This document shows, in pieces, positions 3,260 to 56,288 of a stretch of DNA of 64,000 bases. The stretch spans positions 124,001-188,000 of the forward strand of contig NZ_PDWN01000002.1 in NCBI RefSeq assembly GCF_010093205.1, read 5' to 3'. The notes below the pieces were generated by a model. The model ran no database searches. It had not been told where the DNA came from and worked only from the letters and a program-made list of their open reading frames with translations. The stretch comes from Pseudoxanthomonas daejeonensis. Its GTDB lineage: Bacteria; Pseudomonadota; Gammaproteobacteria; Xanthomonadales; Xanthomonadaceae. The translations under genes and the position numbers were made by a program. Positions within the stretch are counted from its first letter, which is position 1, and each line of letters opens with the position of its first letter.

Positions 3260-3335
3260 TGGTGGGCCGTGACGGATTCGAACCGTCGACCAGCGGATTA
3301 AAAGTCCGATGCTCTACCGACTGAGCTAACGGCCC
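3260..3335 (-). tRNA. tRNA-Lys (anticodon TTT)
   Basis: The 76-nt minus-strand sequence folds as a cloverleaf. The acceptor stem is GGGCCGT/ACGGCCC, the D arm GCTC...GAGC, and the anticodon loop CTTTTAA with anticodon TTT. The T arm is GACGG-TTCGAAT-CCGTC, and discriminator A is followed by an encoded CCA. It lies alone between the helicase gene and queC, with no adjacent integrase or att-like duplication. Confidence 0.97.
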
Positions 3336-4322: not shown

Positions 4323-4420
4323 TGTAGGAGCGGGCATGACCGCGACACCGACGCCTCATGGCGCGGGCGACACCCTCATGGTTCCGACGGCCTCGCGTCG
4401 CGGTCATGCCCGCTCCTACA
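4323..4420. repeat. BIME: pair of A-type REPs, head-out
   Basis: Two A-type units (TGTAGGAGCGGGCATGACC, then GCGACACCG) face each other in inverted orientation across a roughly 40-base spacer. Both outer ends carry the GTAG head. They sit between queE and queC and interrupt what could be a two-gene operon. Confidence 0.93.
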
Positions 4421-4492
4421 AAAAGCGACAGTCCGCTTCGCGAAAGGCGGCTGGTCTCGGACCGGATCTGTCGCGCGCGACCACCCCCTCGC

Positions 4493-5152
4493 TCAGCGCC
4501 CGGGCTCGTCGTTCCAGAGGAGCTTGTGCAGCTGCATCTGGAAACGCACCGGCAGGCGGTCGGCCACGATCCAGTCGGCCAGCGCGCGCGGCTCGAGCTC
4601 GCTCTTGCTCGGCGAGAACAGCACGTCGCAGCGTGCGGCCAGGCCGTGCTCGGCGACCATGTCCCGCGCCCATTCGTAGTCGGCGCGGCCGCACAGCACG
4701 AACTTGACCTGGTCGCGGGCGGTGAGCAGCGGGATGTTCTCCAGCCGGTTGCGCGCCATCTCGGCCGAACCGGGCGTCTTCAGGTCCACCACCCGCGACA
4801 CGCGCGCGTCGACCCCTGCGATGTCGAGCGCGCCGGAGGTTTCCAGCGAGACGTCGTAGCCGGCATCGCACAGGCGCTGCAGCAGGTCCAGGCAGCGCTT
4901 CTGAGCCAGCGGCTCGCCGCCGGTCACGCAGACGTGGCGCACGCCCTGGCGGGCAACCTCGGCGAGGATGTCTTCGATCTCCCACCACTGCCCGCCATGG
5001 AAGGCGTAGGCGGTGTCGCAGTACTGGCAGCGCAACGGGCAGCCGGTGAGGCGCACGAACACGGTCGGCCATCCCGCGGCGTTGGCTTCGCCCTGCAGCG
5101 ACAGGAAGATTTCGGTGAGCTTGAGGCGGCTCTGCGGGACGAGAGTATCCAT
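4493..5152 (-). CDS. queE: 7-carboxy-7-deazaguanine synthase QueE (radical SAM)
   Basis: Radical SAM enzyme that contracts CPH4 to 7-carboxy-7-deazaguanine in queuosine synthesis. The 219-residue protein has LSLQGEA near the N-terminus and the cluster-binding motif C38-x3-C42-x2-C45 (CPLRCQYC), a QueE-type radical SAM site. A conserved VTGGEPL follows at about residue 96. The ATG at 5152 (MDTLVPQSRLKLTEIFLSLQ) is chosen over an upstream extension to 5380, because that extension is translated REP sequence and not protein-like. It lies between cpoB and queC on the same strand, with REP blocks on both sides, so it may be transcribed on its own. Confidence 0.96.
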   Translation of the reverse strand: MDTLVPQSRLKLTEIFLSLQGEANAAGWPTVFVRLTGCPLRCQYCDTAYAFHGGQWWEIEDILAEVARQGVRHVCVTGGEPLAQKRCLDLLQRLCDAGYDVSLETSGALDIAGVDARVSRVVDLKTPGSAEMARNRLENIPLLTARDQVKFVLCGRADYEWARDMVAEHGLAARCDVLFSPSKSELEPRALADWIVADRLPVRFQMQLHKLLWNDEPGR

Positions 5153-5193
5153 CGGCGGATCGTGGTTCTCAGGCGGACGGGCCGCGGGGGTGA

Positions 5194-5291
5194 TGTAGGA
5201 GCGGGCATGACCGCGACACCGAGGGCATCGGAATCGCGATGGCGTCGCCTGTGTCGAAGACGTCGGTGTCGCGGTCATGCCCGCTCCTACA
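5194..5291. repeat. BIME: pair of A-type REPs, head-out
   Basis: Inverted pair of A-type units with GTAG heads outward, 42 bases upstream of the queE start. It has the same design as the block at 4323-4420 but a different spacer. Confidence 0.93.
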
Positions 5292-8276: not shown

Positions 8277-8655
8277 TGGTGTCGCGGTCGTGCCCGCTCC
8301 TACAACGGCGGGGCGCGGGCTCCTGTACGGCGGGTAGCGGGCTCTTGTAGGAGCGGACTTCAGGCCGCGAAGCCGACGCCTCGGCACGGGCGACGCCGTG
8401 CAGGTTCTGACGTACCGCAGGTTCCGACGTGCCGCGGAAATCCGACGGCCTCGGTGTCGCGGTCGTGCCCGCTCCTACAACGCGGGGCGCGGGTCCTGTA
8501 CGGGGCGGGTCGCGGGCTCTTGTAGGAGCGGACTTCAGGCCGCGAAGCCGACGCTTCGGCACGGGCGACGCCGTGCAGGTTCTGAGGTACCGCAGGTTCC
8601 GACGTGCCGCGGAAATCCGACGGCCTCGGTGTCGCGGTCGTGCCCACTCCTACCA
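8277..8655. repeat. BIME block inside the tol cluster (two tandem units)
   Basis: Order on plus: reverse A (ending 8305), forward B (from about 8346), reverse A (ending about 8480), forward B (from about 8520), reverse A (ending 8655). The two copies repeat with a period of about 174 bases, and even the spacer text (CCGACGTGCCGCGGAAATCC) is duplicated. It fills the gap between tolA and tolB. The last unit has drifted (CCACTCCTACC). Confidence 0.93.
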
Positions 8656-8689
8656 AGGTGGCGCGCGCGACGGCGCGATATGGCGGCGC

Positions 8690-10198: not shown

Positions 10199-10975
10199 TC
10201 ATTCCTCGCCGCCGGCCTGGCGCTGCAGGATCGAGCTGAACTCGTCGGCGAAGCTCTCGTAGCGCTGCGACAGGCGGTCCACGCGGCTGGTATAGCGGTT
10301 GTAGGCCCACACCGCCGGGATCGCCACGAACAGGCCGATCGCCGTGGCGAACAACGCCTCGGAGATGCCCGGCGCCACCGAGGCGATGCCGACCTGCGCG
10401 CCCTGGCTGACCATGTCGTGCATGGTCACCATGATCCCGAACACGGTGCCGACCAGGCCGACGTACGGCGCGGTCGAGCCGATGTTGGCCAGCAGCTCCA
10501 GGTTGCGCTCGAGCTTGCCGACTTCGCGGGTGTAGGCCACGCGCATCGCGCGCTGCGCGCCTTCCAGCTGGGCGCGGCCGTCATGGCGGCGCTTGTCGCG
10601 CAGGCGGGTGAATTCGCGGAAGCCCGCTTCGAAGATCGCCTCCAGGCCGCCGACCGTGCGGTTGCGGTCGGTCGCCGCCGCGTACAGCTTGCCCAGCTCG
10701 GCGCCGGACCAGAACCGGTTCTCGAACTCGTCGGCCTCCTGGTCGGCCGCCTTGAAGCTGCGCAACTTGCGGAAAATGATCACCCAGCTGATCACCGATC
10801 CGGCCAGCAGCAGCAGCACGATCAGCTTGACCGGCAGGCTGGCCCGCAACATCAGGTCCAGGTAGTTGATGCCGCCGTGCGCCGCGGTGGCGGCGGCACC
10901 GGCCGCAGCGGCAGCCGCTTCTTCGGGCAGGGCCTCAACCACGGTGGCCACCAGGGCCAGGGTCGCTCCGATCAT
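10199..10975 (-). CDS. tolQ: Protein TolQ (MotA/TolQ/ExbB proton channel family)
   Basis: Forms the pentameric proton channel around TolR in the inner membrane. The 258-residue protein has a helix near 49-68 (VKLIVLLLLAGSVISWVIIF) and a cytoplasmic loop. Two more helices include the family core STAPYVGLVGTVFGIM and ALFATAIGLFVAIPAVWAYN. An upstream in-frame start at 11035 adds 20 unlikely residues, so the ATG at 10975 (MIGATLALVATVVEAL) is preferred; it has GGGGA-like purines upstream. Confidence 0.97.
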   Translation of the reverse strand: MIGATLALVATVVEALPEEAAAAAAGAAATAAHGGINYLDLMLRASLPVKLIVLLLLAGSVISWVIIFRKLRSFKAADQEADEFENRFWSGAELGKLYAAATDRNRTVGGLEAIFEAGFREFTRLRDKRRHDGRAQLEGAQRAMRVAYTREVGKLERNLELLANIGSTAPYVGLVGTVFGIMVTMHDMVSQGAQVGIASVAPGISEALFATAIGLFVAIPAVWAYNRYTSRVDRLSQRYESFADEFSSILQRQAGGEE

Positions 10976-11140: not shown

Positions 11141-11551
11141 TCATGTCGTGTGACCGGCCTGCATCGATTTCAGTTCCTCGTACAACGATTCTTCCATGGG
11201 CGCCGGACGGAAATCGGCGGCACGCAACGAGGCCACCTTCACCTCCGCCGCCAGCAGCAGCTCCTCCCCGCGCAGGATGCGCTGGGTGAAGACCACGCTG
11301 GCGCGGCCGACGCGGGCCACCTCCGCGGTCACCTCGAGCAGGTCGTCCAGCCGCGCCGGGCGCAGGAAGTCCAACCGCATCGAATGCACCGCGAACACCA
11401 GCCCGGCCTGCTGCAGCGCCTGCTGGCCCCGGCCCATCGCACGCAGCGCATCGCTGCGCGCCCGCTCCAGGAAAGCCACGTACCGCGCGTGGTAGACCAC
11501 GCCACCGGCGTCGGTATCTTCCCAGTAGACGCGTATCGGAATGCTGAACAT
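11141..11551 (-). CDS. ybgC: Acyl-CoA thioesterase YbgC (tol-pal cluster hotdog protein)
   Basis: Hotdog-fold 4-hydroxybenzoyl-CoA thioesterase family member acting on acyl-CoAs. Its link to the Tol system is by gene order in most gammaproteobacteria. The 136 residues start MFSIPIRVYWEDTDAGGVVY, with the catalytic Asp in EDTDAGGVVYHARYV (D14 here). A longer frame runs to 11827 but reads through REP sequence and is rejected. It is first in ybgC-tolQ-tolR-tolA; ruvB, often upstream in related genomes, is replaced by a REP block and a RAYT gene. Confidence 0.95.
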   Translation of the reverse strand: MFSIPIRVYWEDTDAGGVVYHARYVAFLERARSDALRAMGRGQQALQQAGLVFAVHSMRLDFLRPARLDDLLEVTAEVARVGRASVVFTQRILRGEELLLAAEVKVASLRAADFRPAPMEESLYEELKSMQAGHTT

Positions 11552-11689
11552 CGGCTCGCCGCGGACAATGGAATCCGCAAAGCATGACCGGTGTGGGGGT
11601 TCGCGGCCAGCCCGGGGCGTTGTGGCGCGTGCCCTTCCAGCAGGTGCTGGCCGAAGCGCCCGGGCCAGGGCGAACGCGGCCCCTGCTCC

Positions 11690-11910
11690 TGTAGGAGCGG
11701 ACTTCAGTCCGCGAAGCCGACGCCTTGGCAGGGGTGACGCCTCCCATGATTTCGACCGCCTGGGAGATACGACCGCCTGGGAGATACGACCGCCTCGGAG
11801 ATCCGAGCGTCTCGGTGTCGCGGTCATGCCCGCTCCTACGAAGCGCGCGCGATCCGGGCACGGGCTGGGAAACTGTAGGAGCGGACTTCAGTCCGCGAAG
11901 CCGACGCCTT
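11690..11910. repeat. BIME block on the 3' side of the RAYT gene
   Basis: Forward B (11690, with the perfect hairpin GCGGACTTCAGTCCGC), reverse A ending about 11839, forward B from about 11874. Between the first two, a 17-base motif related to GACCGCCTGGGAGATAC occurs in near-tandem copies (about 11754-11802). The block lies between ybgC and the RAYT gene; about 100 bases of unique sequence follow before the RAYT stop. Confidence 0.93.
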
Positions 11911-12014
11911 GGCAGGGGTGACGCCTCATGATTCCGACCGCCCCCTATATTCCGACCGCCTCGAAGATCCGATCGAGGACACCGGAACCACGACACACCT
12001 GTCTCCCGACGCCC

Positions 12015-12527
12015 CTACAGCGAAGCCCCGTCCAGCCACACGCAGTCCCAGAACGGGTAGTCGCCGATGCGCTCGACCAGCCCCGCTCGCAGCGGATTGG
12101 CCACGATGTAGCGCGCAACCGAGCGCAGGTCATCCTCCTGCCGCAGTGCCCTGTCATGGAAGGCCGGCCCCCACAGGGCTCCGGCACGCGCCAGCATCCG
12201 GTTGACCTGCACGCCCGTGGCCGCCTTCATCCGCGAGACCACCATCTCCAGCGGCACCCGCGGTCCAAGCTCGATCAGCCAGTGCGCGTGGTCGGGCATC
12301 AGCACCCAGGCCAGCAGCCTTGCATCGGCCAGCGCGGCGGGTTGCCGGAACGCCCGAACCGCCTCGCAGCCGACATGGAAGTTGGCGAACCAGGGGTTCC
12401 GGTCGCGGGTGGCGACGGTGACGTGGTAGACCTGCCCCGGCAACGACACGCGGCCGCGCCGCAAAGCGCGGTGTCCCCGGAAGCGATCCTCGACGTGCAT
12501 GTCCATGGACACACGATGCGCGTCCAC
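12015..12527 (-). CDS. REP-associated tyrosine transposase (RAYT, Y1/HUH family)
   Basis: Single-strand DNA nickase of the IS200/IS605-like Y1 transposase superfamily, domesticated group linked to REP elements. The 170 residues contain the metal-binding HUH motif H80-A-H82 (MPDHAHWLIEL) and the catalytic tyrosine Y140 in ARYIVANPLRAGLV. The RAYT hallmark WGPAFHDRALRQEDDL comes just before it. An N-terminal PGQVYHVTVATRDRNPWF beta strand matches the family. The frame opens at a GTG (12527); ATG codons at 12506 and 12500 are equally possible starts. It is flanked on both sides by GTAG-headed REPs, the expected substrates. No IS ends or target duplication are visible, so it appears to be a resident single-copy gene. 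It is intact, with no stop or frameshift. Confidence 0.93.
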   Translation of the reverse strand: MDAHRVSMDMHVEDRFRGHRALRRGRVSLPGQVYHVTVATRDRNPWFANFHVGCEAVRAFRQPAALADARLLAWVLMPDHAHWLIELGPRVPLEMVVSRMKAATGVQVNRMLARAGALWGPAFHDRALRQEDDLRSVARYIVANPLRAGLVERIGDYPFWDCVWLDGASL

Positions 12528-12672
12528 GAACTACCCGCCCAGCAGCGCACCCCGCACGCCGATGTAGGAATTCGCCGCGCCCGGCCTGCCCCCTGCAACC
12601 ACCCCACCCTGCGTGGCGTTGCGCGCGCACACAAAAACCCGGCAACCCAAGACCCCACCCGTTGTCCGCTCC

Positions 12673-13619
12673 TGTAGGAGCGGGCACGACCGCGACACCG
12701 AGGCGGTCAGACGCCACGAAGACGCCGCCCGTGCCGAGTCCGTCGGAATCGTGCGGCGTCGCCCGTGCCAAAGACGTCGGCTTCGCGGCCTGAAGTCCGC
12801 TCCTACAAACCCGTTGGCCCTGTCCGCATCGCCTTGTAGGAGCGGGCACGACCGCGACACCGAGGCGATCGGACGCCACGAAGACCTCGCCCGTGCCGAG
12901 TCCGTCGGAATCGTGCGGCGTCGCCCGTGCCGAAGACGTCGGCTTCGCGGCCTGAAGTCCGCTCCTACAAACCCGTTGGCGCTGTCCGCATCGCCTTGTA
13001 GGAGCGGGCACGACCGCGACACCGAGGCGGTCAGGCGCCACGAAGACGCCGCCCGTGCCGAGTCCGCCGGAATCGCGAACGCGTCGCCCGTGCCGAGGCC
13101 GCAGGCTTCGCGGCCTGAAGTCCGCTCCTACAAACCCGTGGGCGCTGTCCGCATCGCCTTGTAGGAGCGGGCACGACCGCGACACCGAGGCGGTCAGACG
13201 CCACGAAGACGCCGCCCGTGCCGAGTCCGTCGGAATCGTGCGGCGTCGCCCGTGCCAAAGACGTCGACTTCGCGGCCTGAAGTCCGCTCCTACAAACCCC
13301 TGGCGCTGTCCGCATCGCCTTGTAGGAGCGGGCACGACCGCGACACCGAGGCGGTCGGACGCCACGAAGACGCCGCCCGTGCCGAGTCCGCCGGAATCAC
13401 GAACGCGTCGCCCCTGCCGAGGCCGCAGGCTTCGCGGCCTGAAGTCCGCTCCTACAAACCCGTTGGCGCTGTCCGCATCGCCTTGTAGGAGCGGGCACGA
13501 CCGCGACACCGAGGCGATCGGACGCCACGAAGACCTCGCCCGTGCCGAGTCCGCCGGAATCGCGAACACGTCGCCCCTGCCGAGGCCGCAGGCTTCGCGG
13601 CCTGAAGTCCGCTCCTACA
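12673..13619. repeat. Tandem BIME array, six units of about 162 bases
   Basis: Six copies start at 12673, 12835, 12997, 13160, 13321 and 13484. Each has a forward A unit (TGTAGGAGCGGGCACGACC...), a spacer of about 65 bases, and a reverse B unit (GCGGCCTGAAGTCCGCTCCT). A conserved linker of about 27 bases (CCGTTGGCGCTGTCCGCATC) joins the copies. Copies differ by scattered substitutions (for example CGTGCGGCGTCG versus CGCGAACGCGTCG in the spacer), with two alternating spacer variants. It lies between the RAYT start and the pilB stop. No real gene is present; open frames through it are repeat artefacts. Confidence 0.96.
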
Positions 13620-13649
13620 AAAAAACTCGCCCGTACAAACCCTGCCGCA

Positions 13650-15380
13650 TCAATCCTTGGTAACGCGATTGATCTCGGCCAGGCTGGTGACGCCACTGCG
13701 GCACTTCATCAGCGCCGACTGGCGCAGGTCGCGGATACCGGCCTTCTGTGCCGCTTCGGCGATCTGCATGGCGTTGCCGCCTTCCAGCACGATGGCCTGG
13801 ATCTCCTCGCTCATCGGCATCACCTGGTAGATGCCGGTACGGCCCTTGTAGCCTTCGGTGCACTCGTCGCAGCCCACCGCTTCGTACAGGGTGAACCCGG
13901 CCTTGATCTGCGCCTCGGTGAAGCCTTCGGCCAGCAGCGCGTGCTCCGGCAGCTCGGACGGCTTCTTGCAGCGGCTGCACAGCCGTCGCGCCAGGCGCTG
14001 GGCGATCACCAGGGTCACCGACGAGATGATGTTGAACGGCGCGATGCCCATGTTCATCAGGCGCGCGATGGTCTGCGGCGCGTCGTTGGTATGCAGCGTG
14101 GACAGCACCATGTGGCCGGTCTGCGCCGCCTTGACGCCGATCTCGGCCGTCTCCAGGTCGCGGATTTCGCCGACCATGATGATGTCCGGATCCTGGCGCA
14201 GGAAGCTGCGCAGGGCCGCGGCGAAGGTCATGCCGCGCTTGACGTTCTGCTGCACCTGGTTCACGCCGGGCAGGCGGATTTCCACCGGGTCCTCGACCGT
14301 GGAGATGTTGCGCTGGTCGTCGTTGAGGATGCCCAGCGCGGTGTACAGCGACACGGTCTTGCCCGAGCCGGTCGGTCCGGTCACCAGGACCATGCCGTAG
14401 GGCTTCTGGATCGCATCCAGGAACAGCTTCTGCTGGTCTTCTTCGTAGCCCAGCTTGTCGATGCCCAGCTTGGCCGCGCTGCCATCGAGGATACGCAGCA
14501 CCACCTTCTCGCCGAACAGGGTCGGCAGTGTGCTGACGCGGAAGTCGATCTGCTTGGTCTTGGACAGGTTGAGCTTGATGCGTCCGTCCTGCGGGACGCG
14601 CTTTTCGGCGATATCCAGCTGCGCCATGACCTTGAGGCGCGCGGCGATACGCGGGCTCAGCTTCACCGGCGCCTTGGCCACCGACTTGAGCAGGCCGTCG
14701 ATGCGCAGGCGCACCCGGTAGTCGGTTTCGTAGGGCTCGAAGTGGATGTCCGAGGCGCCGCGGCGGATCGCGTCGATCAGCACCTTGTTGACGAACTTGA
14801 CCACGGGCGTGTCGTCGCCCTTGGCGTCGACGCCGGAATCACCGCCGGCGTCCTCCTCGCCGCCACCGATTTCCAGGTTGTCCAGCCCCTCGTCATCGCC
14901 GCCCAGGTCACCGCTGATCTGCCCGCTTGCGTTCTGCCACTGTTCCAGGGTGCGGCGGATCTGGTCCTCGTCGACCAGGATCGCTTCCACCACCAGGTTG
15001 GTGTGGAACTGCAGCTCGGCCAGCGAGGCGGTCTGGGTGGGCTGGCTGGTGCCGACGAAGAGCTTGTTGCCGCGCTTGAACAGCGGCAGCACGTGGTGCT
15101 TCTGGACCAGCTCCTCGCTGACCAGCTTCAGCGCGTTCTGGCTGGGATCGAACGCGGCGACATCCAGCAGCGGCATTCCGAATTCGACTGCATTGGCCGC
15201 GGCCATCTGCGCCGGGGCGACCAGCTTCTTCTCGGCGATCCACTGTGCCAGTGGTAGCTTGGCCTCGGTGGCCTGGGCCATGGCGGCGCGGGCAGCGGCC
15301 TCGTCCAGGGCGCCGTCCTGCACCAGCCGGCGCGCGATGCCGGTGATGCCGACGAGGTTAGCGGTCACGACAGCATTCAT
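13650..15380 (-). CDS. pilB: Type IV pilus assembly ATPase PilB
   Basis: Cytoplasmic hexameric ATPase that powers pilus extension. The 576-residue protein has the N-terminal T2SSE-N domain, a poly-Asp/Gly linker (about 165-195) and the GspE-type ATPase core. Walker A is GPTGSGKT at about 333-340, with Asp box and VGEIRDLETAEI (Walker B region). A zinc-binding tetracysteine follows (CSRCKKP ... VGCDEC, about 465-500). The start MNAVVTANLVGITGIARRLV at 15380 is preferred over the longer frame to 15470. It is downstream of the two pilin genes on the same strand and opposite to pilC/pilD, the usual xanthomonad pil arrangement. Confidence 0.97.
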   Translation of the reverse strand: MNAVVTANLVGITGIARRLVQDGALDEAAARAAMAQATEAKLPLAQWIAEKKLVAPAQMAAANAVEFGMPLLDVAAFDPSQNALKLVSEELVQKHHVLPLFKRGNKLFVGTSQPTQTASLAELQFHTNLVVEAILVDEDQIRRTLEQWQNASGQISGDLGGDDEGLDNLEIGGGEEDAGGDSGVDAKGDDTPVVKFVNKVLIDAIRRGASDIHFEPYETDYRVRLRIDGLLKSVAKAPVKLSPRIAARLKVMAQLDIAEKRVPQDGRIKLNLSKTKQIDFRVSTLPTLFGEKVVLRILDGSAAKLGIDKLGYEEDQQKLFLDAIQKPYGMVLVTGPTGSGKTVSLYTALGILNDDQRNISTVEDPVEIRLPGVNQVQQNVKRGMTFAAALRSFLRQDPDIIMVGEIRDLETAEIGVKAAQTGHMVLSTLHTNDAPQTIARLMNMGIAPFNIISSVTLVIAQRLARRLCSRCKKPSELPEHALLAEGFTEAQIKAGFTLYEAVGCDECTEGYKGRTGIYQVMPMSEEIQAIVLEGGNAMQIAEAAQKAGIRDLRQSALMKCRSGVTSLAEINRVTKD

Positions 15381-19352: not shown

Positions 19353-19662
19353 TGTAGGAGCGGACTTCAGGCCGCGAAGCCGACGGCCTCGGCACGGGCG
19401 ATGCCCTCGTGGCTCCGAACCCCACCCGGCACGGGCGATGCCCTCGCGATTCCGGCCGCCTCGGTGTCGCGGTCGTGCCCGCTCCTACAACAGCGCGGCC
19501 TGGGCTCTTGTAGGAGCGGACTTCAGGCCGCGAAGCCGACGCCGTCGGCCCGGGCGACGCCCTCGACCTCCCATGGCCTCGGTGTCGCGGTCGTGCCCGC
19601 TCCTGCAACAGCGGGGCCCGGGCTTTTGTAGGAGCGGACTTCAGTCCGCGAAGCCGGCGCCG
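19353..19662. repeat. BIME block between pilD and coaE (five REPs)
   Basis: Forward B at 19353, reverse A ending 19489, forward B at 19509, reverse A ending 19608, forward B at 19627. Units alternate strictly. Linkers such as CAGCGCGGCCTGGGCTCT recur. It breaks the pilC-pilD-coaE series. Confidence 0.94.
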
Positions 19663-19772
19663 TCGGCAGGGGCGGCTTCCCGGCACGGGTGGCACCGTCG
19701 GGGCGCACGACGCCCGACAGGTTCCGACAGCGGCGGGCACTGCCCCGCGCTCATGTCGCGGACACGCCCGCC

Positions 19773-20440: not shown

Positions 20441-21275
20441 TGTAGGAGCGGGCATGACCGCGACACCGAGGCCGCTGGACCCACAGGGCGTCGCCCGTGC
20501 CGAAGGCGTCGCCTTCGCGGACTGAAGTCCGCTCCTACAAAAGCCCAGGCCCCGCTGCTGTAGGAGCGGGCATGACCGCGACACCGAGGCCATGGGAGGT
20601 CGAGGGCGTCGCCCGTGCCGAAGGCGTCGGCTTCGCGGACTGAAGTCCGCTCCTACACAAGCCCCCTACGCATCGTGCCGTTGTAGGAGCGGGCATGACC
20701 GCGACACCGAGGCCATGGGAGGTCGAGGGCGTCGCCCGTGCCGAAGGCGTCGGCTTCGCGGACTGAAGTCCGCTCCTACACAAGCCCCCTACGCATCGTG
20801 CCGTTGTAGGAGCGGGCATGACCGCGACACCGAGGCCATGGGAGGTCGAGGGCGTCGCCCGTGCCGAAGGCGTCGGCTTCGCGGACTGAAGTCCGCTCCT
20901 ACACAAGCCCCCTACGCATCGTGCCGTTGTAGGAGCGGGCATGACCGCGACACCGAGGCCGCTGGACCCACAAGGGCGTCGCCCGGGCCGAAGGCGTCGG
21001 CTTCGCGGACTGAAGGCCGCTCCTACACAAGCCCCCTACGCATCATGCCGTTGTAGGAGCGGGCACGACCGCGACACCGAGGCCGCTGGACCCACAAGGG
21101 CGTCGCCCGGGCCGAAGGCGTCGGCTTCGCGGACTGAAGTCCGCTCCTACACAAGCCCCCTACGCATCGTGCCGTTGTAGGAGCGGGCATGACCGCGACA
21201 CCGAGACCATGAGAGGTTCGAGGGCGTCGCCCGTGCCGAAGGCGTCGCCTTCGCGGACTGAAGTCCGCTCCTACA
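20441..21275. repeat. Tandem BIME array, seven units of about 123 bases
   Basis: Forward A heads start at 20441, 20559, 20682, 20805, 20928, 21052 and 21176. Each unit is forward A, a spacer of about 30 bases, then reverse B (GCGGACTGAAGTCCGCTCCT), joined by a linker CAAGCCCCCTACGCATCGTG. Units 3 to 5 are almost identical; two spacer variants occur (CATGGGAGGTCGAG and CGCTGGACCCACA), the second in units 1, 5 and 6. The array fills the gap between coaE and the Nudix/ThiE-like gene. Near-identity points to recent amplification. Confidence 0.96.
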
Positions 21276-22360: not shown

Positions 22361-22690
22361 CCCTCGGTGTCGCGGTCGTGCCCGCTCCTACAACGGCGGG
22401 GGGTGGTCGGGGCTTGGGCTTGTGCAGGAGCGGACTTCAGGCCGCGAAGCCGACGGCGTTGGCACGGGCGATACCAGCCCGGGCCTTAGCAAGGCACCAC
22501 AGGCCTGGGCCACGCCAAGGCAATTCCGACGCTCTCGGTGTCGCGGTCGTGCCCGCTCCTACAACGGCGGGGGTGGTCGGGGCTTGTGTAGGAGCGGACT
22601 TCAGGCCGCGAAGCCGACGGCGTTGGCACGGGCGACGCGTTGCGATTCCGACGCTCTCGGTGTCGCGGTCGTGCCCGCTCCTGCAACGGC
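22361..22690. repeat. BIME block between secA and the Nudix gene (five REPs)
   Basis: Reverse A (ending about 22391), forward B from about 22421 (head drifted to GTGCAGGAGCGG), reverse A (ending about 22562), forward B from about 22584, reverse A (ending about 22685, CTCCTGCA). The B-to-A spacing differs between copies. It adjoins the secA terminator. Confidence 0.92.
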
Positions 22691-22704
22691 GGGTCGATCC
22701 TCCA

Positions 22705-22738
22705 GAAAAAAAGGCGCCGGAGATCCGGCGCCTTTTCT
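22705..22738 (-). terminator. Terminator downstream of secA
   Basis: Minus strand AAAAGGCGCCGG-ATCT-CCGGCGCC followed by seven Ts: a perfect 12-bp stem with T-tract, 23 bases after the secA stop. The A-tract on the other side makes it potentially bidirectional. Confidence 0.95.
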
Positions 22739-22760
22739 GGTTACCGCAGCGAGCAATGGA

Positions 22761-25511
<2,751 letters not shown>

Positions 25512-25613
25512 CGATGGGACCGGTTGGGAATGAACGCCGGGGCCGCCGCCAGCGGGCGGCCCGTGCGGACGGCGCGCAATGCGACCGCCCGAGGCAACAT
25601 GACATTGTAGCTT

Positions 25614-25619
25614 GGGACG
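25614..25619 (-). promoter_or_regulatory. Candidate -10 box of secA
   Basis: CTACAAT on minus, with the hexamer about 100 bases before the secA ATG. TTGAGA lies 21 bases further upstream, which is longer than ideal. Confidence 0.35.
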
Positions 25620-25705
25620 CCGGGCGGCGATCTCAAGGCAGACCGGCCCCTTTCAAGGCAGGCCGGAGCCCTCGCCGGCTCCACCACCGCCTCGCGCCAT
25701 GCCGT

Positions 25706-25805
25706 TGTAGGAGCGGGCGTGACCGCGACACCGAGACTGCCGGAACCGCAGCGGCGTCGCCTGTGCCAATGGCATCGGCTTCGCGGCCTGAAGTCCGCTC
25801 CTACA
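25706..25805. repeat. BIME: one A/B pair
   Basis: Forward A (TGTAGGAGCGGGCGTGACC) and reverse B (GCGGCCTGAAGTCCGCTCCT) with heads outward. It lies between the M23 peptidase gene terminator and secA. Confidence 0.93.
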
Positions 25806-45018: not shown

Positions 45019-45161
45019 TTCCGTACTTGTGAAGGCCATGTGAGTTGCGCGAAACAGGAGCCGCACGACGGGTGCTGCGTCGCGTCACGACTGCATCGGA
45101 ACGCACCCATGCACGAGCCTCCCCCGGCTGAAGCTCCGGAAGAGGCGGGTGCAGGAAAAGT

Positions 45162-45512
45162 GGCGGAGCCGGCCGGTAAGCCGGGTTCTGTCGTGGACAG
45201 TCATTCCTCTAGGCGCAACGTCACCGTTACGCTCGAGCAGCCTACCCGGACCCGACGCGGGCAACGTCATGAGGTCCCTATTTGGCCTTGCTCCCGGTGG
45301 GGTTTGCCGTGCCGGCCTGTTACCAGGCTCGCGGTGCGCTCTTACCGCACCATTTCACCCTTGCCCGCATCCCGAAGGACCGCTGGCGGTATCTTTCTGT
45401 TGCACTTTCCGTCGGCTCGCGCCGCCCAGGCGTTACCTGGCACCGTGCCCTGTGGAGCCCGGACTTTCCTCGGCATCGTTTCCGATGACGCGACTGTCTG
45501 GCCGACTCCGCC
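45162..45512 (-). ncRNA. rnpB: RNase P RNA (bacterial class A)
   Basis: Catalytic RNA of RNase P, which matures tRNA 5' ends. The minus strand carries the conserved blocks GAGGAAAGTCCGGGCTCC, AGGGCACGGTGCCAGGTAAC, CAGAAAGATACCGCC, GGTAAGAGCGCACCG and AGAACCCGGCTTACCGGCC. Ends are set by the P1 helix GGCGGAGTCGGCC pairing with GGCCGGCTCCGCC, followed by a short T run (ACTTTTCC). It is about 351 nt, normal length, and lies between rsmI and mraZ on the same strand. Confidence 0.96.
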
Positions 45513-48634: not shown

Positions 48635-49022
48635 TCGCGAGCTGGATCGCCGCGCCCGCGGCGCCCGCGTCGAAAAGGCCGCGCGCGCCGAACTCGAGCG
48701 CGCCGGCCTGCGCCTGGAGGCGGCCAATGTCGGCTACCGCGGCGGCGAGCTGGACCTGGTGATGCTGGAGCCCGGCCGCGACGGCGGGACGCTGGTCTTC
48801 GTGGAAGTGCGCTACCGCGCCGCGTCTTCCTTCGGCGGCGGCTTCGCCTCGGTCGACCATGGCAAGCGGCGCAAGCTGGTGCGCGCCGCGCAGCTGTACC
48901 TGGGTTCGCACGCCCGGCTGGCGCAGCTGCCGTGCCGCTTCGACGTGGTCGAAGCCAGCGGCGACCCGGACACGCCGGAGATCCGCTGGTTGAAGGATGC
49001 GTTCCGGCTCGACGATGTGTAG
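48624..49022 (+). CDS. yraN: YraN/UPF0102 family endonuclease-like protein
   Basis: Family of small nuclease-fold proteins of uncertain role. The 132 residues contain [19 protein letters not shown] then [10 protein letters not shown], the Glu/Asp...Glu core of an endonuclease-like fold. The GTG start (48624) overlaps the last 11 bases of lpoA. The stop codon TAG is provided by the GTAG head of the REP that begins at 49018; the natural C-terminus may have been altered (ends [10 protein letters not shown]). Confidence 0.88.
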
Positions 49023-49117
49023 GAGCGGGCATGACCGCGAGGCCGGGGCGTCGGAATCGCCCGCCATCGCTGGCCCCGCCAGCAGCAGCTTCGCGGCCAG
49101 AAGTCCGCTCCTACAAA
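49018..49117. repeat. BIME: one A/B pair; its head is the yraN stop
   Basis: Forward A (TGTAGGAGCGGGCATGACC, tail diverged to GAGGCCGG) and reverse B-like (GCGGCCAGAAGTCCGCTCCT), heads outward. The first TAG is the yraN stop codon. Confidence 0.9.
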
Positions 49118-49129
49118 GGCCTGCCCGCC

Positions 49130-49135
49130 TACAAT
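49130..49135 (+). promoter_or_regulatory. -10 box of the FAD oxidase gene placed for a leaderless transcript
   Basis: GCCCGCCTACAAT followed by six bases and ATG: the same 13-mer and the same spacing as at coaE. No Shine-Dalgarno is present. Confidence 0.55.
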
Positions 49136-49141
49136 CGCGCA

Positions 49142-50527
49142 ATGACCCGTCCCCTGCCCCCCGCCCTCGACGCCGAACTGGCAGCACTGCTCGGTCCCGA
49201 CGGCTGGCTGACGGGCGAACAGATGCGGCGTGCGCACGGCGAAGACGACTCGCGCATGTCCGCCCTGCCCGACGCGGTGGCCGTTCCGCGCGACCGCGAC
49301 CAGGTCGCCGCGATCGTGCGCGCCTGTCGCGCCCACCGCGTGCCGCTGGTGGCGCGTGGCGCGGGCACCGGGACCACCGGCGCTGCGGTGCCGTTCGCGG
49401 GCGGCGTGGTGCTGTCGTTCGCGCGGATGGACCGGATCCTGGAAATCCGCGCCGGCGACCGCTGCGCCGTGGTCGAGCCGGGCGTGCTGAACGGCGACCT
49501 GCAGCAGGCGCTGCAACCGCACGGCCTGTTCTGGCCACCGGACCCCTCCAGCTACGAGCGCTGCACGATCGGCGGCAACCTCGCCTGCAATGCGGGCGGC
49601 CCGCGCGCGGTGAAGTACGGCGCCACCCGCGACAACGTGCTCGGCGTGGTCGCGGTGACGGGCACCGGCGAGACCATCCACTGCGGCGGCCCGTGGACCA
49701 AGGACGCGACCGGCTACGACCTCACCCACCTGCTGGTCGGCAGCGAAGGCACGCTCGCGCTCATTGTCGAAGCGACGCTGAAGCTGGCGCCACGACCGCG
49801 CGCGCAGGCCGGACTGCGCGCGTTCTACCGCGATGCGACGGCGGCCGCGGCGGCCGTGGGCCGGCTGATGGCGCAGCCCCAGGTGCCGGCGATGCTCGAA
49901 TTCATGGATCGCAGCGCGATCGCCCTGCTCCGCCGCAACGGCACCGACGTGCCCGAAGCAGGAGCGATGCTGCTGATCGAGGCCGACGGCGACGACGACA
50001 CGCTGCCCTATGCGCTGCAGGCGCTGGCCAATGCCGCCGAGGGCGACGGCCTGCTCTCGCTGGACGTCGCCGCGGACGGCAGCGCGCGCGACCGCCTGTG
50101 GGCGGCCCGTCGCGCGCTTTCGCCGGCGCTGCGCACGATCGCTCCGGGCAAGATCAACGAAGACGTGGTGGTGCCGGTCTCGCGCATTCCGGCGCTGGTC
50201 GCGGGCGTGGAAGCGCTGTCCGCCGAATTCGCCTTGCCGATCGTGGCTTTCGGCCATGCCGGCAACGGCAACCTGCACGTCAACATCCTGTACCACCCCG
50301 ACGACCCGACCGAAGCCGGGCGCGCGCAGGCCGCGCTGCCGCGGCTGTTCGAGTTGGTCCTGTCGCTGGGCGGCACGCTGTCGGGCGAACACGGCATCGG
50401 CGTCGCCAAGCGCGACTGGATGGACCGCGCCTTCGATGCGCCGACCCTGGCGACCATGCGCGCGATAAAAGCGGCCCTGGACCCGGACGGCATCCTCAAC
50501 CCGGGCAAGGTGCTGCCGCCCGCCTGA
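49142..50527 (+). CDS. FAD-linked oxidase (GlcD / D-2-hydroxyacid dehydrogenase type)
   Basis: VAO/PCMH-family flavoprotein, 461 residues. The FAD-binding half has VARGAGTGTTGAAVPFAGGV, the pyrophosphate segment TIGGNLACNAGGPRAVKYGA and LLVGSEGTLALIVEATLKL. The C-terminal FAD-oxidase cap ends with FGHAGNGNLHVNILYHPD and GEHGIGVAKRDWM. These are hallmarks of D-lactate, glycolate (GlcD) and D-2-hydroxyglutarate dehydrogenases; the substrate cannot be chosen from sequence. The ATG at 49142 follows a -10 box directly (leaderless); a longer frame from 48932 reads through yraN and REP sequence. Confidence 0.92.
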   Translation: MTRPLPPALDAELAALLGPDGWLTGEQMRRAHGEDDSRMSALPDAVAVPRDRDQVAAIVRACRAHRVPLVARGAGTGTTGAAVPFAGGVVLSFARMDRILEIRAGDRCAVVEPGVLNGDLQQALQPHGLFWPPDPSSYERCTIGGNLACNAGGPRAVKYGATRDNVLGVVAVTGTGETIHCGGPWTKDATGYDLTHLLVGSEGTLALIVEATLKLAPRPRAQAGLRAFYRDATAAAAAVGRLMAQPQVPAMLEFMDRSAIALLRRNGTDVPEAGAMLLIEADGDDDTLPYALQALANAAEGDGLLSLDVAADGSARDRLWAARRALSPALRTIAPGKINEDVVVPVSRIPALVAGVEALSAEFALPIVAFGHAGNGNLHVNILYHPDDPTEAGRAQAALPRLFELVLSLGGTLSGEHGIGVAKRDWMDRAFDAPTLATMRAIKAALDPDGILNPGKVLPPA

Positions 50528-50596
50528 CCTGCTGTCGCCGCTGCGACCAGCGCGCACCGCCGATGCGACAATGGCGCGGCCTACCTGGAGCGCTGC

Positions 50597-51760
50597 GTGG
50601 ACACATCCGCCTTCGATGCCATCACCCTGGAGCAGTTGCGCGCCGGCGGCGGGCTCAAGTGGCGCGCGTTTCCCGACTGCATCGGCGCGTTCGTCGCGGA
50701 GATGGACTTCGGCATCGCCCCGGTCATCCGCGAGGCGCTGCACACGGCGGTCGACCAGGGCCAGGTCGGCTACCTGTCCGCCGCGCCCGTGCGCGCGATG
50801 GCCGAAGCCTGTTCGCAATGGCAGCAGCGCCACCATGGCTGGTCGATCCCCGCCGATGCGATCAGGCCGGTCGCCGACGTACTGGGCGCGCTCGAAATCG
50901 TGCTGCGGCACTACCTGCCGGCCGGCGCCTCCGTGGCGCTGCCGGTACCGTGCTACATGCCGTTCATTCCGTTGATGCAGCTGCTGGGCAACCCCGTCAT
51001 ACAGGTGCCGATGCAACGCGGCCATGCAGGATGGACGCTGGATGAATCCGCACTGGAGGATGCCTTCGCTTCCGGCGCGCGCATGCTGCTGCTGTGCAAT
51101 CCGCACAATCCGATCGGCAAGGTGTACGCGCGCGAAGAATTGCAGCGCATCACCGCGATCGTCGCGCGCCACGACGCGCGCGTGTTCGCCGACGAAATCC
51201 ATGCTCCACTGCTCTACGACGGCCAGCACCACGTGCCGTATGCGACGGTTTCGGACGCGGCGGCGCAACAGGCGATCACCGCCCTGTCCGCCTCCAAGGC
51301 CTGGAACCTCGCGGGGCTCAAGTGCGCGCAGCTCGCATTCACCCGCGAGGAGGACCTGCGCCGCTGGCGCGAGATCGGCCACTTCGCCGGCAACAGCACC
51401 GCGACCCTGGGCGTGATCGCGCACACCGCCGCCTGGCGCGAGGGGGATGCATGGCTGGACGGAGTACGCAGCTACCTGCAGGGCAACCGCGAGCTGCTCG
51501 GCCGGCTGCTGCGCGAGCGCCTGCCGCAGGTCGGCTATCTGGAGTCGCAGGGCACCTACCTGGCCTGGCTCGACTGCCGCAGCCTGCCGCTGGACACCGC
51601 GCCACACCTGTTCTTCCGTCGCCATGCCCATGTGGCGTTGACCGATGGCGGTGAGTGCGGCGAAGGCGGCGAAGGCCATGTGCGCCTGAATTTCGCGATG
51701 CCGCGTCCGCTGCTGGTGGAAGCCGTGGATCGCATGGCCAGGGCGGTTGCGCTTTTGTAG
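50597..51760 (+). CDS. patB: PatB/MalY-type PLP-dependent C-S lyase (aminotransferase fold)
   Basis: Fold-type I PLP enzyme, probably a cystathionine beta-lyase. The 387 residues start at GTG (50597). Motifs include FVAEMDFGIAPVI, the MalY/PatB opening, and NPHNPIGKVY. ADEIHAPLLYDG (Asp and the DEIH of this subgroup) and SASKAWNLAGLKCAQLAF with the PLP lysine also appear. LNFAMPRPLL near the end contains the substrate arginine-type region. The stop TAG is within the REP head starting at 51754. Assignment within the subfamily is moderately sure; plain aminotransferase activity cannot be excluded. Confidence 0.88.
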   Translation: MDTSAFDAITLEQLRAGGGLKWRAFPDCIGAFVAEMDFGIAPVIREALHTAVDQGQVGYLSAAPVRAMAEACSQWQQRHHGWSIPADAIRPVADVLGALEIVLRHYLPAGASVALPVPCYMPFIPLMQLLGNPVIQVPMQRGHAGWTLDESALEDAFASGARMLLLCNPHNPIGKVYAREELQRITAIVARHDARVFADEIHAPLLYDGQHHVPYATVSDAAAQQAITALSASKAWNLAGLKCAQLAFTREEDLRRWREIGHFAGNSTATLGVIAHTAAWREGDAWLDGVRSYLQGNRELLGRLLRERLPQVGYLESQGTYLAWLDCRSLPLDTAPHLFFRRHAHVALTDGGECGEGGEGHVRLNFAMPRPLLVEAVDRMARAVALL

Positions 51761-51858
51761 GAGCGGACTTCAGGCCGCGACACCGACGACCTCGGCACAG
51801 GCGACGACGATGTGATTCCGACGGCGTCGGTGTCGCGGCCTGAAGTCCGCTCCTACAA
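51754..51858. repeat. BIME: symmetric hybrid B/A pair; its head is the patB stop
   Basis: Forward B head and stem (GTAGGAGCGGACTTCAGGCC) carrying an A tail (GCGACACCGACG), mirrored by the reverse copy (GTGTCGCGGCCTGAAGTCCG). This is the only hybrid of the two types that I see in the window. It lies between patB and thiL (convergent). Confidence 0.92.
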
Positions 51859-51968
51859 AGGCAGGACCGCAGCCCCGACACGGCAATGGCAAGCAGTACG
51901 ACAAGACGCCTTCCGTGCCCGCGAGATGCAACCGGGCGCGACGCCAGCGTGCAACCAAGGCCCTCTCA

Positions 51969-52952
51969 TCAGCCAAAATGCACGTATCCGCCCGGAGGGG
52001 TTTGCCATCGACTGCCGTCGGCGGCCAGCGCGCGCACACCATCGCCGGTAACGACCCGGCCGATGCGGCTGCACTCGACCCCAGCCTGTTCCAGAACCAT
52101 CGCAACCGCTTCGCGCACCACTGGCGGCGCGGTGAAGCAAAGCTCGTAGTCGTCGCCACCACCGGCCTGCAGGGCGATGCGACCGGCACCGTCGCCGAAC
52201 GCTTGCCGCAAGGCTGTCGAGGCGGGCAGCGCGGCGAGCTCGATGTCGGCACCCACCCCGCTGCGCTCGCAGACATGGCCAAGGTCGGCCAGCAGGCCAT
52301 CGGAGACGTCGACGCAGGCATGGGCCAGTCCGAGCAGGGCGCGGCCCGCTTCGACGCGCGGCGTCGGCCGCTCCAGGCGCATGCGCAGCGCGGCGGCGAT
52401 GCGCGCATCTTCCGGGGGCGCGACGCCCTCGATCGCCGGCATGTGCCCGGCAAGCACCAGCGCCGCCGCTGCGTCACCCAGCGTTCCGGTCACCCAGATG
52501 TCATCGCCGATGCGGGCACGGTCGCGGCGCAGCGCCGCCCCGGTTTCGACCAGGCCCATCGCGGTGACCGCGATCGACAAGGGCCCGCGCGTGGTGTCAC
52601 CGCCGACCAGGGCAATGCCGTGCATGGCGGCCAATTCCAGGAAACCGTCGAGGAACCCCTCCAGCCATCCCGCATCGGCTTGCGGCAGCGAAAGCGACAA
52701 AGTGCACCACGCCGGGCGCGCGCCCATCGAGGCCAGATCGGACAGGTTGGCCGCCAGCGCCTTCCAGCCGATGTCGGCCGGAGCGGTGTCCTCGGGGAAA
52801 TGCACGCCGGCATTAAGCGTGTCGGCGGTGACCACCAGTTCGTGGCCGGCGGGCACGTGCAGCAGCGCCGCGTCGTCGCCGATGCCCAGCAACACGCCTC
52901 CGCGCATCGTGGCGCGGGCTCGGATCATCGCGATCAGGTCGAATTCGGCCAT
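51969..52952 (-). CDS. thiL: Thiamine-monophosphate kinase ThiL
   Basis: ATP-dependent formation of thiamine diphosphate. The 327-residue protein has GIGDDAALLHVPAGHELVVT (ATP/Mg site), DTLNAGVHFP, GGDTTRGPLSIAVTAMG, ACVDVSDGLLADLGHV and GGGDDYELCFTAPP. The start MAEFDLIAMIRARA at 52952 fits; a longer frame to 53132 is low-complexity. It is last gene of the ribE-ribB-ribH-nusB-thiL run, a common gammaproteobacterial order, so thiamine diphosphate formation may follow FMN riboswitch control. Confidence 0.96.
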   Translation of the reverse strand: MAEFDLIAMIRARATMRGGVLLGIGDDAALLHVPAGHELVVTADTLNAGVHFPEDTAPADIGWKALAANLSDLASMGARPAWCTLSLSLPQADAGWLEGFLDGFLELAAMHGIALVGGDTTRGPLSIAVTAMGLVETGAALRRDRARIGDDIWVTGTLGDAAAALVLAGHMPAIEGVAPPEDARIAAALRMRLERPTPRVEAGRALLGLAHACVDVSDGLLADLGHVCERSGVGADIELAALPASTALRQAFGDGAGRIALQAGGGDDYELCFTAPPVVREAVAMVLEQAGVECSRIGRVVTGDGVRALAADGSRWQTPPGGYVHFG

Positions 52953-53086
52953 GGCGGCATCTTGCCCGGATTCCACGCTGGGGGGATATGCGGCGCGGGG
53001 CGGCGCGCAGGACTCGCGCCGTCTACGGCGTTCCGCCCACGCTGGCACGCGCCACGACCGCGCTTTCGATGTCGCGACGCGCCGGG

Positions 53087-53560
53087 TCAGGTCCGCGCGT
53101 TGCGTCCGGCCTGGACCTCGACCGCGCGCCATTCGCCGCTGGCACGGTCGAGTACGCCATTGACGTAGGTGTGGCCGTGCTCGGAGCCGAAGCGCTTGGC
53201 GATCTCGATCGCCTCGTTCAGCACGACCCGGTACGGCACGTCGGGACGGTGCAGCAGTTCATAGGCGGCCAGGCGCAGCACCGCCCGCTCGATAGGATCG
53301 ACTTCTTCCATGCCGCGGTCCAGGTGCGGCGCCAGCGCCGCATCCAGGCCGACACGCTCGGCGAGCACGCCGCGGACCAGGTCCTCGAAGTACTCCAGGT
53401 CGGCCACTTCATGCGCCTGCTCGTGGGCGAACTGCGCGATCACCTGCTGCGCGTTGCCCCCGGAGATCTGCCAGGCGTACAGGGCCTGCAGCGCACGACG
53501 GCGGGCGCGGCCGCGCAATACCGGGTCGACACCCGTACGGGGACGGAACGGACGGTTCAT
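53087..53560 (-). CDS. nusB: Transcription antitermination factor NusB
   Basis: Binds boxA RNA with NusE in rRNA antitermination. The 157 residues show [60 protein letters not shown] and the hallmark [19 protein letters not shown]. The start [14 protein letters not shown] at 53560 overlaps the ribH stop by four bases. Confidence 0.97.
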
Positions 53561-54024
53561 CGCAGGCGCTCCATCAGGTTGACCATTTCCAGCGCGGCCA
53601 ATGCCGCCTCCTCGCCCTTGTTGCCATGGCTGCCGCCGGCGCGGGCCTCGGCATCCTCGAATTTTTCCACCGCCAGCACGCCATTGAGCACCGGCACGCC
53701 GGTATCCAGCGCCACCCGCATCAGGCCTTCGGCGCACAGGTCGGCGACATGCTCGTAGTGGCGGGTATCACCGCGCACGACGCAGCCCAGCACGATCAGC
53801 GCCTGGTGGCCGCCGCCACTGGCCAGTCGCTGCGCCGCCACCGGCAGTTCCCAGGCGCCCGGCAGGCGGACCACGTCCACCGCATCCTCGGGCACCCCGT
53901 TCTCGGCCAGGCAGCGACGGGCGCCGGCGACCAGGGCGTCGGTGATGCGCGCGTTCCAGCGGCTGGCCAGGATCGCGAAGCGGGCGTCGGCCGGCAGGCG
54001 CAGGTCGCCTTCGTACAGGGTCAT
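53557..54024 (-). CDS. ribH: 6,7-dimethyl-8-ribityllumazine synthase RibH
   Basis: Condenses the ribB product with the aminouracil. The 155 residues have [20 protein letters not shown] (with W in place of the usual F-x-x-x-N), [37 protein letters not shown] (catalytic His region) and [20 protein letters not shown]. It lies between ribB and nusB. Confidence 0.97.
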
Positions 54025-54110
54025 GGGCGCGGGAGTCCTCGGGGGTCGGACAGTTTAACGGAGCCGGGGCCGGGCGGCCCTCCGGCCGGCCCTCCGGCCG
54101 ACCCGCCGGA
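54025..54110. other. Short gap between ribB and ribH with duplicated palindrome
   Basis: Contains two tandem copies of the 12-base palindrome GGCCCTCCGGCC (about 54076-54099), giving a strong possible hairpin between ribB and ribH. It could stabilise or attenuate the message; no T-tract follows. Confidence 0.4.
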
Positions 54111-55205
54111 TCATGGCTGGACGTACTCGACGACTTCCAGCCCGTAACCCGCCAGGCCCACCTGCCGGCGCGGCGTGCCCAGCACGCGCAGCCGGCCCAG
54201 GCCCAGGTCGGCCAGGATCTGCGCGCCGGCGCCATTGCGCCGCCACTGGCCCACGTCCTTGGCGTCCGGCCTCACCTCGGGCTGCTTGCGCAGCCGCGCC
54301 AGCAGGGCCTCGGCGTTGCGCGGCTCGGACAGGACCACCATCACCCCCTGCCCTTCGGCGGCGATCGCGCGCAAAGCATCGGTCGCGGCGACGCCGAAGT
54401 CGTCGCGGCGCCAGTGCAGCAGGTCGCTGAGCGGGTTCTCGACCTGGACCCGGACCAGGGTCGGCGTGGCCCGGTCGGGCGTGCCGCGGACCAGGGCGAA
54501 GTGCAGTTCATGGGCGATGCGATCGCGATAGGTCACCAGCTGGAACGGTCCGAACTCGGTCTCGACGTCGCGCGCGTCGAGGCGCTCGACGGTGTGCTCG
54601 GTGGCCAGGCGATGGGCGATCAGGTCGGCGATCGAGCCCATCTTCAGCCCGTGCTCGCGGGCGAACACCTCCAGCTCCGGACGCCGCGCCATGCTGCCGT
54701 CGGCGTTCATCACCTCGACCAGCACGCCGGCCGGCTCCAGCCCGGCGAGCATCGGCAGGTCGCTGGCCGCCTCGGTGTGGCCGGCGCGGGTCAGCACGCC
54801 GCCGGGCTGCGCGGTCAGCGGGAAGATGTGGCCCGGCTGGCTCAGGTCGGACGGCCTGGCATCCGGGCGCACCGCGGTGCGGATGGTGTGGGCGCGATCG
54901 TAGGCGGAGATGCCGGTGGTCACGCCCTCCGCCGCCTCGATGCTGACGGTGAAGTTGGTCTGGAACTGGGCGGTATTGGTCTGGACCATGGGCGCCAGGC
55001 CCAGCTGGGCGCAGCGCTCGCGGGTCAGCGACAGGCAGACCAGGCCGCGCGCGTGGGTGACCATGAAGTTGATGTCGGCCGGACGGACCAGCTCGGCGGC
55101 CATGATCAGGTCGCCCTCGTTCTCGCGATCCTCGTCGTCGACGATCACGACCATGCGGCCGGCGCGGATCTCTTCCAGCAGTTCGGGGACCGGGGCGAAA
55201 CTCAT
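54111..55205 (-). CDS. ribB: 3,4-dihydroxy-2-butanone-4-phosphate synthase with degenerate RibA-like domain
   Basis: Makes the four-carbon precursor of lumazine from ribulose 5-phosphate. Of 364 residues, the first about 205 are a RibB domain with VIVDDEDRENEGDLIMAAEL, VTHARGLVCLSLT, ISAYDRAHTIRTAV, GGVLTRAGHTEAASDL. The rest resembles GTP cyclohydrolase II (YRDRIAHELHFALVRG) but has no cysteine in place of the C-x10-C-x-C zinc site (NPLSDLLHWRRDDFGVAATD). GTP cyclohydrolase activity is therefore unlikely, and a separate RibA should exist. Such RibB hybrids (RibBX) are known in gammaproteobacteria. ribE overlaps upstream by four bases. Confidence 0.94.
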   Translation of the reverse strand: MSFAPVPELLEEIRAGRMVVIVDDEDRENEGDLIMAAELVRPADINFMVTHARGLVCLSLTRERCAQLGLAPMVQTNTAQFQTNFTVSIEAAEGVTTGISAYDRAHTIRTAVRPDARPSDLSQPGHIFPLTAQPGGVLTRAGHTEAASDLPMLAGLEPAGVLVEVMNADGSMARRPELEVFAREHGLKMGSIADLIAHRLATEHTVERLDARDVETEFGPFQLVTYRDRIAHELHFALVRGTPDRATPTLVRVQVENPLSDLLHWRRDDFGVAATDALRAIAAEGQGVMVVLSEPRNAEALLARLRKQPEVRPDAKDVGQWRRNGAGAQILADLGLGRLRVLGTPRRQVGLAGYGLEVVEYVQP

Positions 55206-55819: not shown

Positions 55820-55989
55820 CAGCGCGCCTCCGGAAAAACCACGCGACAGTGGCCCGCGGCCGATCGCAAACGGGCCTGCAGGGCGACGGAACGGGCGAAT
55901 CTGGGGAGCTTCATGTGCGTCTTCCGCGTAAGGGCTGCGAAAAACGTCCCGGGGCACGAGCGGCCACCCGGCACGGGCCGGGCGGCTGC

Positions 55990-56185: not shown

Positions 56186-56288
56186 ATCTTGTTGGATCAC
56201 CGGCGAACCGGCGCGGGCATTCTACCGCAGGCCGCTGAATGGCCCTGGGCCTACGCCACAGACCGCCTGGAACGGTGTGTCCACGCAT

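Follow-up and report, generated by a model that had tools for sequence, protein, structure and literature searches.

REP-associated tyrosine transposases (RAYTs) are found together with short repeats, the REPs, and their exact function is stated as unknown (PMC8049555). The TnpA-REPs studied so far cut at a CT dinucleotide (PMC8266576). Accumulation of REPs near the rayt gene was reported in three marine gammaproteobacteria and one betaproteobacterium and was read as following horizontal arrival (Nunvar 2010, PMC2817692). REPs can turn over at a fixed RAYT, a process termed orthoswitch, and RAYT inactivation, in the papers searched, takes the form of pseudogenization through frameshift or nonsense changes, with the REPs decaying afterwards (PMC3686654). 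Large clusters of GTAG repeats are reiterated along with flanking DNA (PMC3733652).

The role of RAYTs in their hosts and the long persistence of these single-copy transposases give such loci their interest. Here, we analysed a 64-kb window (positions 124001–188000 of contig C22 in a 3.56-Mb, 37-contig Pseudoxanthomonas genome, G000) and compared one genome per species of this genus. The locus is a well-formed member of the known RAYT/REP kind, and the part worth following is the comparison of active orthologs with catalytically lost ones that show matching REP loss.

Results

Identification of the RAYT gene

The original prediction placed a RAYT at 12015–12527, with HAH at residues 80–82 and Tyr140. 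The identification held: the product scored 137.7 bits against the curated RAYT model NF047646 (REP_Tyr_transpos) of NCBIfam (cut-off 80) and 41.3 bits against Pfam Y1_Tnp (cut-off 23), and the residue numbers are right for the 170-aa frame that starts at GTG 12527. Its extent was revised. Cross-species comparison showed that MDMHVEDRF at ATG 12506 is conserved and that the residues upstream are not, and hence ATG 12506 is most likely the real start, giving the numbering in Table 1. The HxH, Tyr, and Y---NP signature is present as HAH, Y133, and N137-P138. The E. coli TnpA-REP/REP complex (4er8) was the sole PDB relative by sequence and the top match by fold, with approximately 24% identity in the fold match. 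The 163-aa protein lacks a C-terminal extension and its REPs are short; judged from these features, in a RAYT tree that holds no group reference set, it appears to be of the group-3-like kind. Assignment to IS200/IS605 was not supported, as the NF033573 score was 30 bits (cut-off 55) and the RAYT is single-copy, with no mobile multi-copy gene. No second match to Y1_Tnp or NF047646 was found in the genome. The predicted absence of another transposase was thus confirmed for the Y1/RAYT families, and the genome holds no other RAYT to which closer REPs could belong.

Table 1 Features of the analysed window (window coordinates).
Feature	Position	Strand	Remarks
tRNA-Lys	3260–3335	−	
REP pairs	4324–5290		two 96-bp A-A pairs, 4324–4419 and 5195–5290
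REP units	8278–8667		A/B units within two 175-bp repeats
tolQ	10199–10975		next after the ybgC-like gene
ybgC-like thioesterase gene	11141–11575	−	syntenic neighbour of RAYT
REP type B	11691–11714	+	GTAGGAGCGGACTTCAGTCCGCGA
REP type A	11818–11839	−	GTAGGAGCGGGCATGACCGCGA; head-out partner of 11691
REP type B	11875–11898	+	
Degenerate REP head	12008–12019	−	TGTAGGGGCGTC, from sequence; holds the RAYT stop codon TAG (12015–12017)
RAYT	12015–12506	−	163 aa from the conserved ATG; HAH 73–75, Tyr133, Asn137
REP-head-like element	12564–12576	+	GTAGGAATTCGCC; 64 bp upstream of the RAYT ATG
Array	12673–13621		six A>...<B modules of 133–134 bp; near-identical 28–29 bp spacer; period 162 (TRF)
pilB (type IV pilus ATPase)	13650–15380	−	syntenic neighbour of RAYT
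REP units	19354–19674		A-B pair plus extra B units
Second array	20441–21275		seven A-B modules (97–98 bp); own spacer ACAAGCCCCCTACGCATCGTGCCGTT
REP units	22370–25804		A/B units at 22382, 22553, and 22588; A-B pair 25707–25804
RNase P RNA	45161–45509	−	
Dispersed REP pairs	49019–56380		A-B 49019, B-B 51757, A-A 56290
FMN riboswitch	55986–56184	−	approximately 100 bp from the GTAGGAGCGG A-A pair at 56290

On both sides of the gene lie GTAG-headed REPs in inverted orientation, of a kind present in many copies in the genome; the head that overlaps the 3' end of the gene is itself degenerate. The stop codon TAG lies inside a good GTAGGAGC REP head in G003, G011, and G013 and inside a GTAGGGGGCC variant in G007. 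Upstream of the gene, TTCCTAC, the complement of the GTAGGAA head, was found at −64/−65 in nine other species with either active or substituted RAYTs and at −70 in G015; it was absent in G010. This motif may be an operator, a promoter part, or a REP remnant. Motifs resembling it occur at −41 to −65 of the RAYT in some other genera. The possibility that GTAGGAATTCGCC is a dispersed repeat was rejected, as the window holds a single exact copy.

REP units and their arrangement

The window contains exactly 52 GTAGGAGCGG heads, in line with the predicted "more than fifty", and genome-wide mapping gave 228 of them alongside the one RAYT. Typed units of 22–24 nt numbered 153 for type A (GTAGGAGCGGGCAYGACCGCGACACCG) and 51 for type B (GTAGGAGCGGACTTCAGKCCGCGAAGCC) in the genome; the reversed-pattern control for these typed units gave zero matches, and no Rfam family matched the REPs at gathering score. 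Both blocks predicted beside the gene were recovered: the left one has units at 11691 (+), 11830 (−), and 11875 (+), and the right one has 12 REPs in six 162-bp modules (TRF 12673–13621). Several contigs begin or end within or close to REP units (C2 end, C11 start, C14, and C15 of G000; C33 start of G003), and REP arrays probably break assembly. As draft assemblies lose REP arrays, the REP counts and array sizes given here are lower bounds.

The pattern GTAGGAGCGG, suggested earlier for a genome-wide search, consists of the head plus half a stem; the common head is GTAGGAGC, and the stem varies by species. The pattern is not diagnostic, because the GTAGGAGC head is common to many RAYTs across several proteobacterial genera and because G070, a genome of another genus in the same family, has 164 GTAGGAGCGG units (L225–L235) and no detectable RAYT. 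The G070 units are orphan REPs with a GCGGCGC stem, and this different stem led us to set them aside as a refutation of the RAYT–REP association.

Among 159 units in the sampled DNA, we identified 57 head-out pairs (32 A-B, 18 A-A, 2 B-B, and 5 with a variant), mostly with the modal length of 96–98 bp, and just five units had no neighbour inside 260 bp. What is repeated is thus an inverted pair of REPs resembling a REPIN. Two hairpin types in fixed polarity had been proposed; the heads always point outward, but the partner varies, and an obligate A-B substrate was dropped in view of the A-A and B-B pairs. In single-strand prediction, type A formed a 4-bp stem with a 6-nt loop and type B (T variant) a 6-bp stem, and whole pairs folded with z of about −3.4 against shuffles. 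CT occurred at −5, 5' of GTAG, in 53 of the 159 units, compared with a background of 4.9%.

Modules of one array have near-identical spacers, and each array has a spacer of its own (AAACCCGTTGGCGCTGTCCGCATCGCCTT at 12673–13621, ACAAGCCCCCTACGCATCGTGCCGTT at 20.4–21.3 kb, and others in C2, C8, C32, and C37). Independent insertions would not share one spacer; each array therefore grew as a pair and its spacer were duplicated together in tandem, not by repeated insertion. The array beside the gene, put forward earlier as a sign of RAYT substrates, thus reflects local duplication and gives in itself no evidence of RAYT insertions.

Conservation of the locus in the genus

The order pilB-RAYT-ybgC-tolQ was found in G000, G011, G007, G013, G010, G008, G005, and G015, and the RAYT of G003 adjoins ybgC-tolQ at a contig end. 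The REP stems at the locus were TGGCTTCAGCCGGCGA in G011, CCATCYTCATGGGCG in G007, CCACTTCAGGGGGCGA in G003, and CGGTCTTGCCGGCGA in G013, with the head GTAGGAGC in common. Since the units are near-identical and their stems species-specific, we infer that the RAYT/REP system has been recently active.

Some rearrangements were observed. Compared with the other species, the RAYT of G013 (L253, C11 10671–11144), which lies between inverted REPs, is flipped with respect to its neighbours pilB and ybgC, apparently by inversion in place. In G012/G002 and G006/G016, pilB is adjacent to ybgC (gaps of 11–163 bp) with no RAYT between them and a substituted RAYT elsewhere; in these species, the RAYT has been moved or re-acquired. 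A second RAYT of G007, distant at 36% identity (L223/L267, C14 at about 3.9–4.3 kb), adjoins an array built from another REP, GTAGAGCCGGGCTYGCCCGGCT, like Stenotrophomonas GTAG repeats.

Catalytic residues and REP abundance

The HxH motif and Tyr are intact in five species, G000, G011, G007, G003, and G013, whose genomes contain 205, 1254, 327, 373, and 216 TGTAGGAGC heads, respectively. Eight species have substituted RAYTs and 10, 5, 10, 34, 2, 6, 7, and 70 heads, and the three genomes in which no close RAYT match was found have 33, 51, and 17. G012 (QAH) and G002 (QVH) keep Tyr and lose Asn of Y---NP, and these His-to-Gln proteins may not be fully dead. Both His and Tyr positions are affected in G006 (RVH, Y to Q) and G016 (RAH, Y to R); G010 has HCH with Y to A, and a second, intact RAYT elsewhere. 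In G008 (RVA), G005 (RVY), and G015 (RVC), Tyr is replaced by Arg. Changes were concentrated at the four catalytic positions (23 of 32 alignment cells, compared with 62 of 296 at other family-conserved sites; Fisher 1e-8). Of the RAYTs checked outside the genus, nearly all are intact, except that L060 has Phe and L065 has Arg in place of Tyr; one set of 67 loci is biased, having been found partly via a HAH-containing pattern, and another locus set is unbiased.

On the pilB tree, at least two changes of state are required, giving two separate contrasts, G013 with G004 and G000/G003/G007/G011 with G006/G016; the RAYT tree alone permits one change. The frameshifted RAYT of G014 (57% complete genome) was excluded from the contrasts. 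REP abundance in the genus thus tracks an intact HUH motif and Tyr, in species that are few, not phylogenetically independent, and joined by these two sister contrasts only. This correlation across species supports RAYT-dependent REP maintenance. It also agrees with the original prediction of one RAYT with its cognate REPs per genome: a genus member with abundant units and no RAYT would have spoken against it, and the RAYT-less genomes have 17–51 heads compared with 205–1254 in the intact ones.

Clustering of REPs near the RAYT

On C22, 47 of the 61 heads are found no more than 15 kb from the RAYT. Type B loci of G000 were enriched near the gene genome-wide (p = 1.4e-5; 2.4e-4 excluding the RAYT-adjacent locus). 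In G007, every 10 kb carried 6.5–20 heads up to a distance of 20 kb from the RAYT, compared with 1.2–1.8 farther away. Across the family, the near/far comparison was uneven: G037 and G033 were enriched, G031 on one side, G045 weakly, and G022, G048, and G034 were not. Because the RAYT is syntenic across species, the clustering fits the cis-preference model (Nunvar 2013) better than recent arrival.

Alternatively, the clustering might be a property of the chromosomal region, such as tolerant intergenic DNA or replication context, rather than of the gene. The heads of G011 agree with such a view, as their clustering is regional, raised over a span of about 200 kb that reaches approximately 100 kb on either side. 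We nevertheless consider a regional cause rather unlikely. The enrichment in G007 decays within 20 kb, and the 20-kb region around pilB, where no intact RAYT is present, contains no GTAGGAGC heads in G012, G002, G006, G010, G008, and G015, 0–1 in G005, and two in G004.

Selection on the substituted RAYTs

The substituted RAYTs are full-length open frames of the same length without frameshifts. Their pN/pS values were 0.34–0.37 among G008, G005, and G015, 0.41 for G006–G016, and 0.06 for G012–G002, compared with 0.21–0.40 for active pairs and minima of 0.55–0.93 in neutral simulations (two GC contents, two transition biases). G008, G005, and G015 have in common Arg at both the first His and the Tyr positions; therefore, their divergence post-dates inactivation. 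The predicted structure of the G008 protein keeps the fold (pLDDT 88, top match 4er8). Four substituted species keep the RAYT at the pilB-ybgC site of the active gene, and the upstream GTAGGAAT element is mostly retained.

These genes could be ordinary decaying pseudogenes that stay open since high-GC DNA has few stops. They do occur in a genus with vanishing REPs, G008 and G005 score slightly under the Pfam cut-off, and the GC-rich neutral simulations were sometimes stop-free. However, simple decay would not account for pN/pS well under neutral in three groups, for the unchanged length, for substitutions concentrated at the catalytic sites, or for the retained fold and upstream TTCCTAC, and we judge it unlikely. 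Since purifying selection still acts on the substituted genes of sister species whose REPs are gone, the sequences suggest that the substituted RAYTs have a function without need for cleavage. A broader proposal, for and against which we find the case about evenly balanced, is that the RAYT was exapted in Pseudoxanthomonas: the catalytic residues were lost independently in several species, along with nearly all REPs, while the protein stayed under purifying selection, the ancestral host role being non-catalytic binding of single-stranded or hairpin DNA, possibly autoregulatory, with REP spreading dispensable. We found no conserved, catalytically dead RAYT in the literature searched, much of the subscription literature being outside its reach.

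Discussion

The two REP types have one head, GTAGGAGC, and form head-out pairs that are dispersed, clustered near the RAYT, and locally multiplied by tandem duplication. We hold with good confidence that a vertically inherited, catalytically competent, and apparently group-3-like RAYT occupies the locus, together with a REPIN/BIME population maintained by it. An alternative in which the RAYT is a passenger, with REPs copied through recombination or replication slippage of the host and retained because they serve it (as terminators, for mRNA stability, or as gyrase sites), is improbable: the tandem-duplicated arrays with their array-specific spacers do suit it, but the dispersed pairs at unrelated sites, the REP scarcity where the RAYT is substituted or missing, and the clustering near the gene are left unexplained.

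With the RAYT maintaining its REPs, the protein would bind the folded single-stranded REPIN via GTAG and the hairpin, and Tyr133 would nick the adjacent CT. Copies would then be re-inserted, preferentially near the RAYT gene. Stems turn over from one species to the next around a RAYT that keeps its position, and the protein may have a second function independent of catalysis. Among the orthologs of the genus, some retain and others have lost catalysis, several of them at one locus, and the REP populations number 200–1250 and 2–70, respectively. The genus thereby lets REP spreading be separated from any other host role, and a dependence of REP maintenance on RAYT activity becomes testable.

The Xanthomonas RAYTs with GTAGGAGCGCAC/GTAGGAGCGCGC REPs (Nunvar 2010, PMC2817692) are alike in their REP/BIME-flanked gene, the GTAGGAGC head, a REP number that tracks the cognate RAYT, orthologous RAYTs with altered REPs, and REPs that may gather near rayt. 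They differ in their stems, and the elements here have two REP types each; the clustering described here surrounds a syntenic gene, whereas there it was read as surrounding a recently acquired one. REPtron Sm of S. maltophilia, with a group 3 TnpA-REP (PMC8266576), also has a short protein lacking the C-terminal extension seen in group 2, a short hairpin after GTAG, and CT adjoining the REP. Its stems and loops differ from those here, where type A has a predicted 4-bp stem and 6-nt loop. E. coli TnpA-REP with Y/Z2 BIMEs (PMC2817692, 4er8) resembles the present system in two REP types of opposite orientation and tandem BIMEs at the gene, but is a group 2 protein with long, bulged REPs. Finally, the Pseudomonas REPINs (PMC3116915, PMC8049555) are likewise inverted REP pairs acting as a dispersed unit, with long-term vertical inheritance of the RAYT; in contrast to them, A-B, A-A, and B-B pairs coexist in the system described here.
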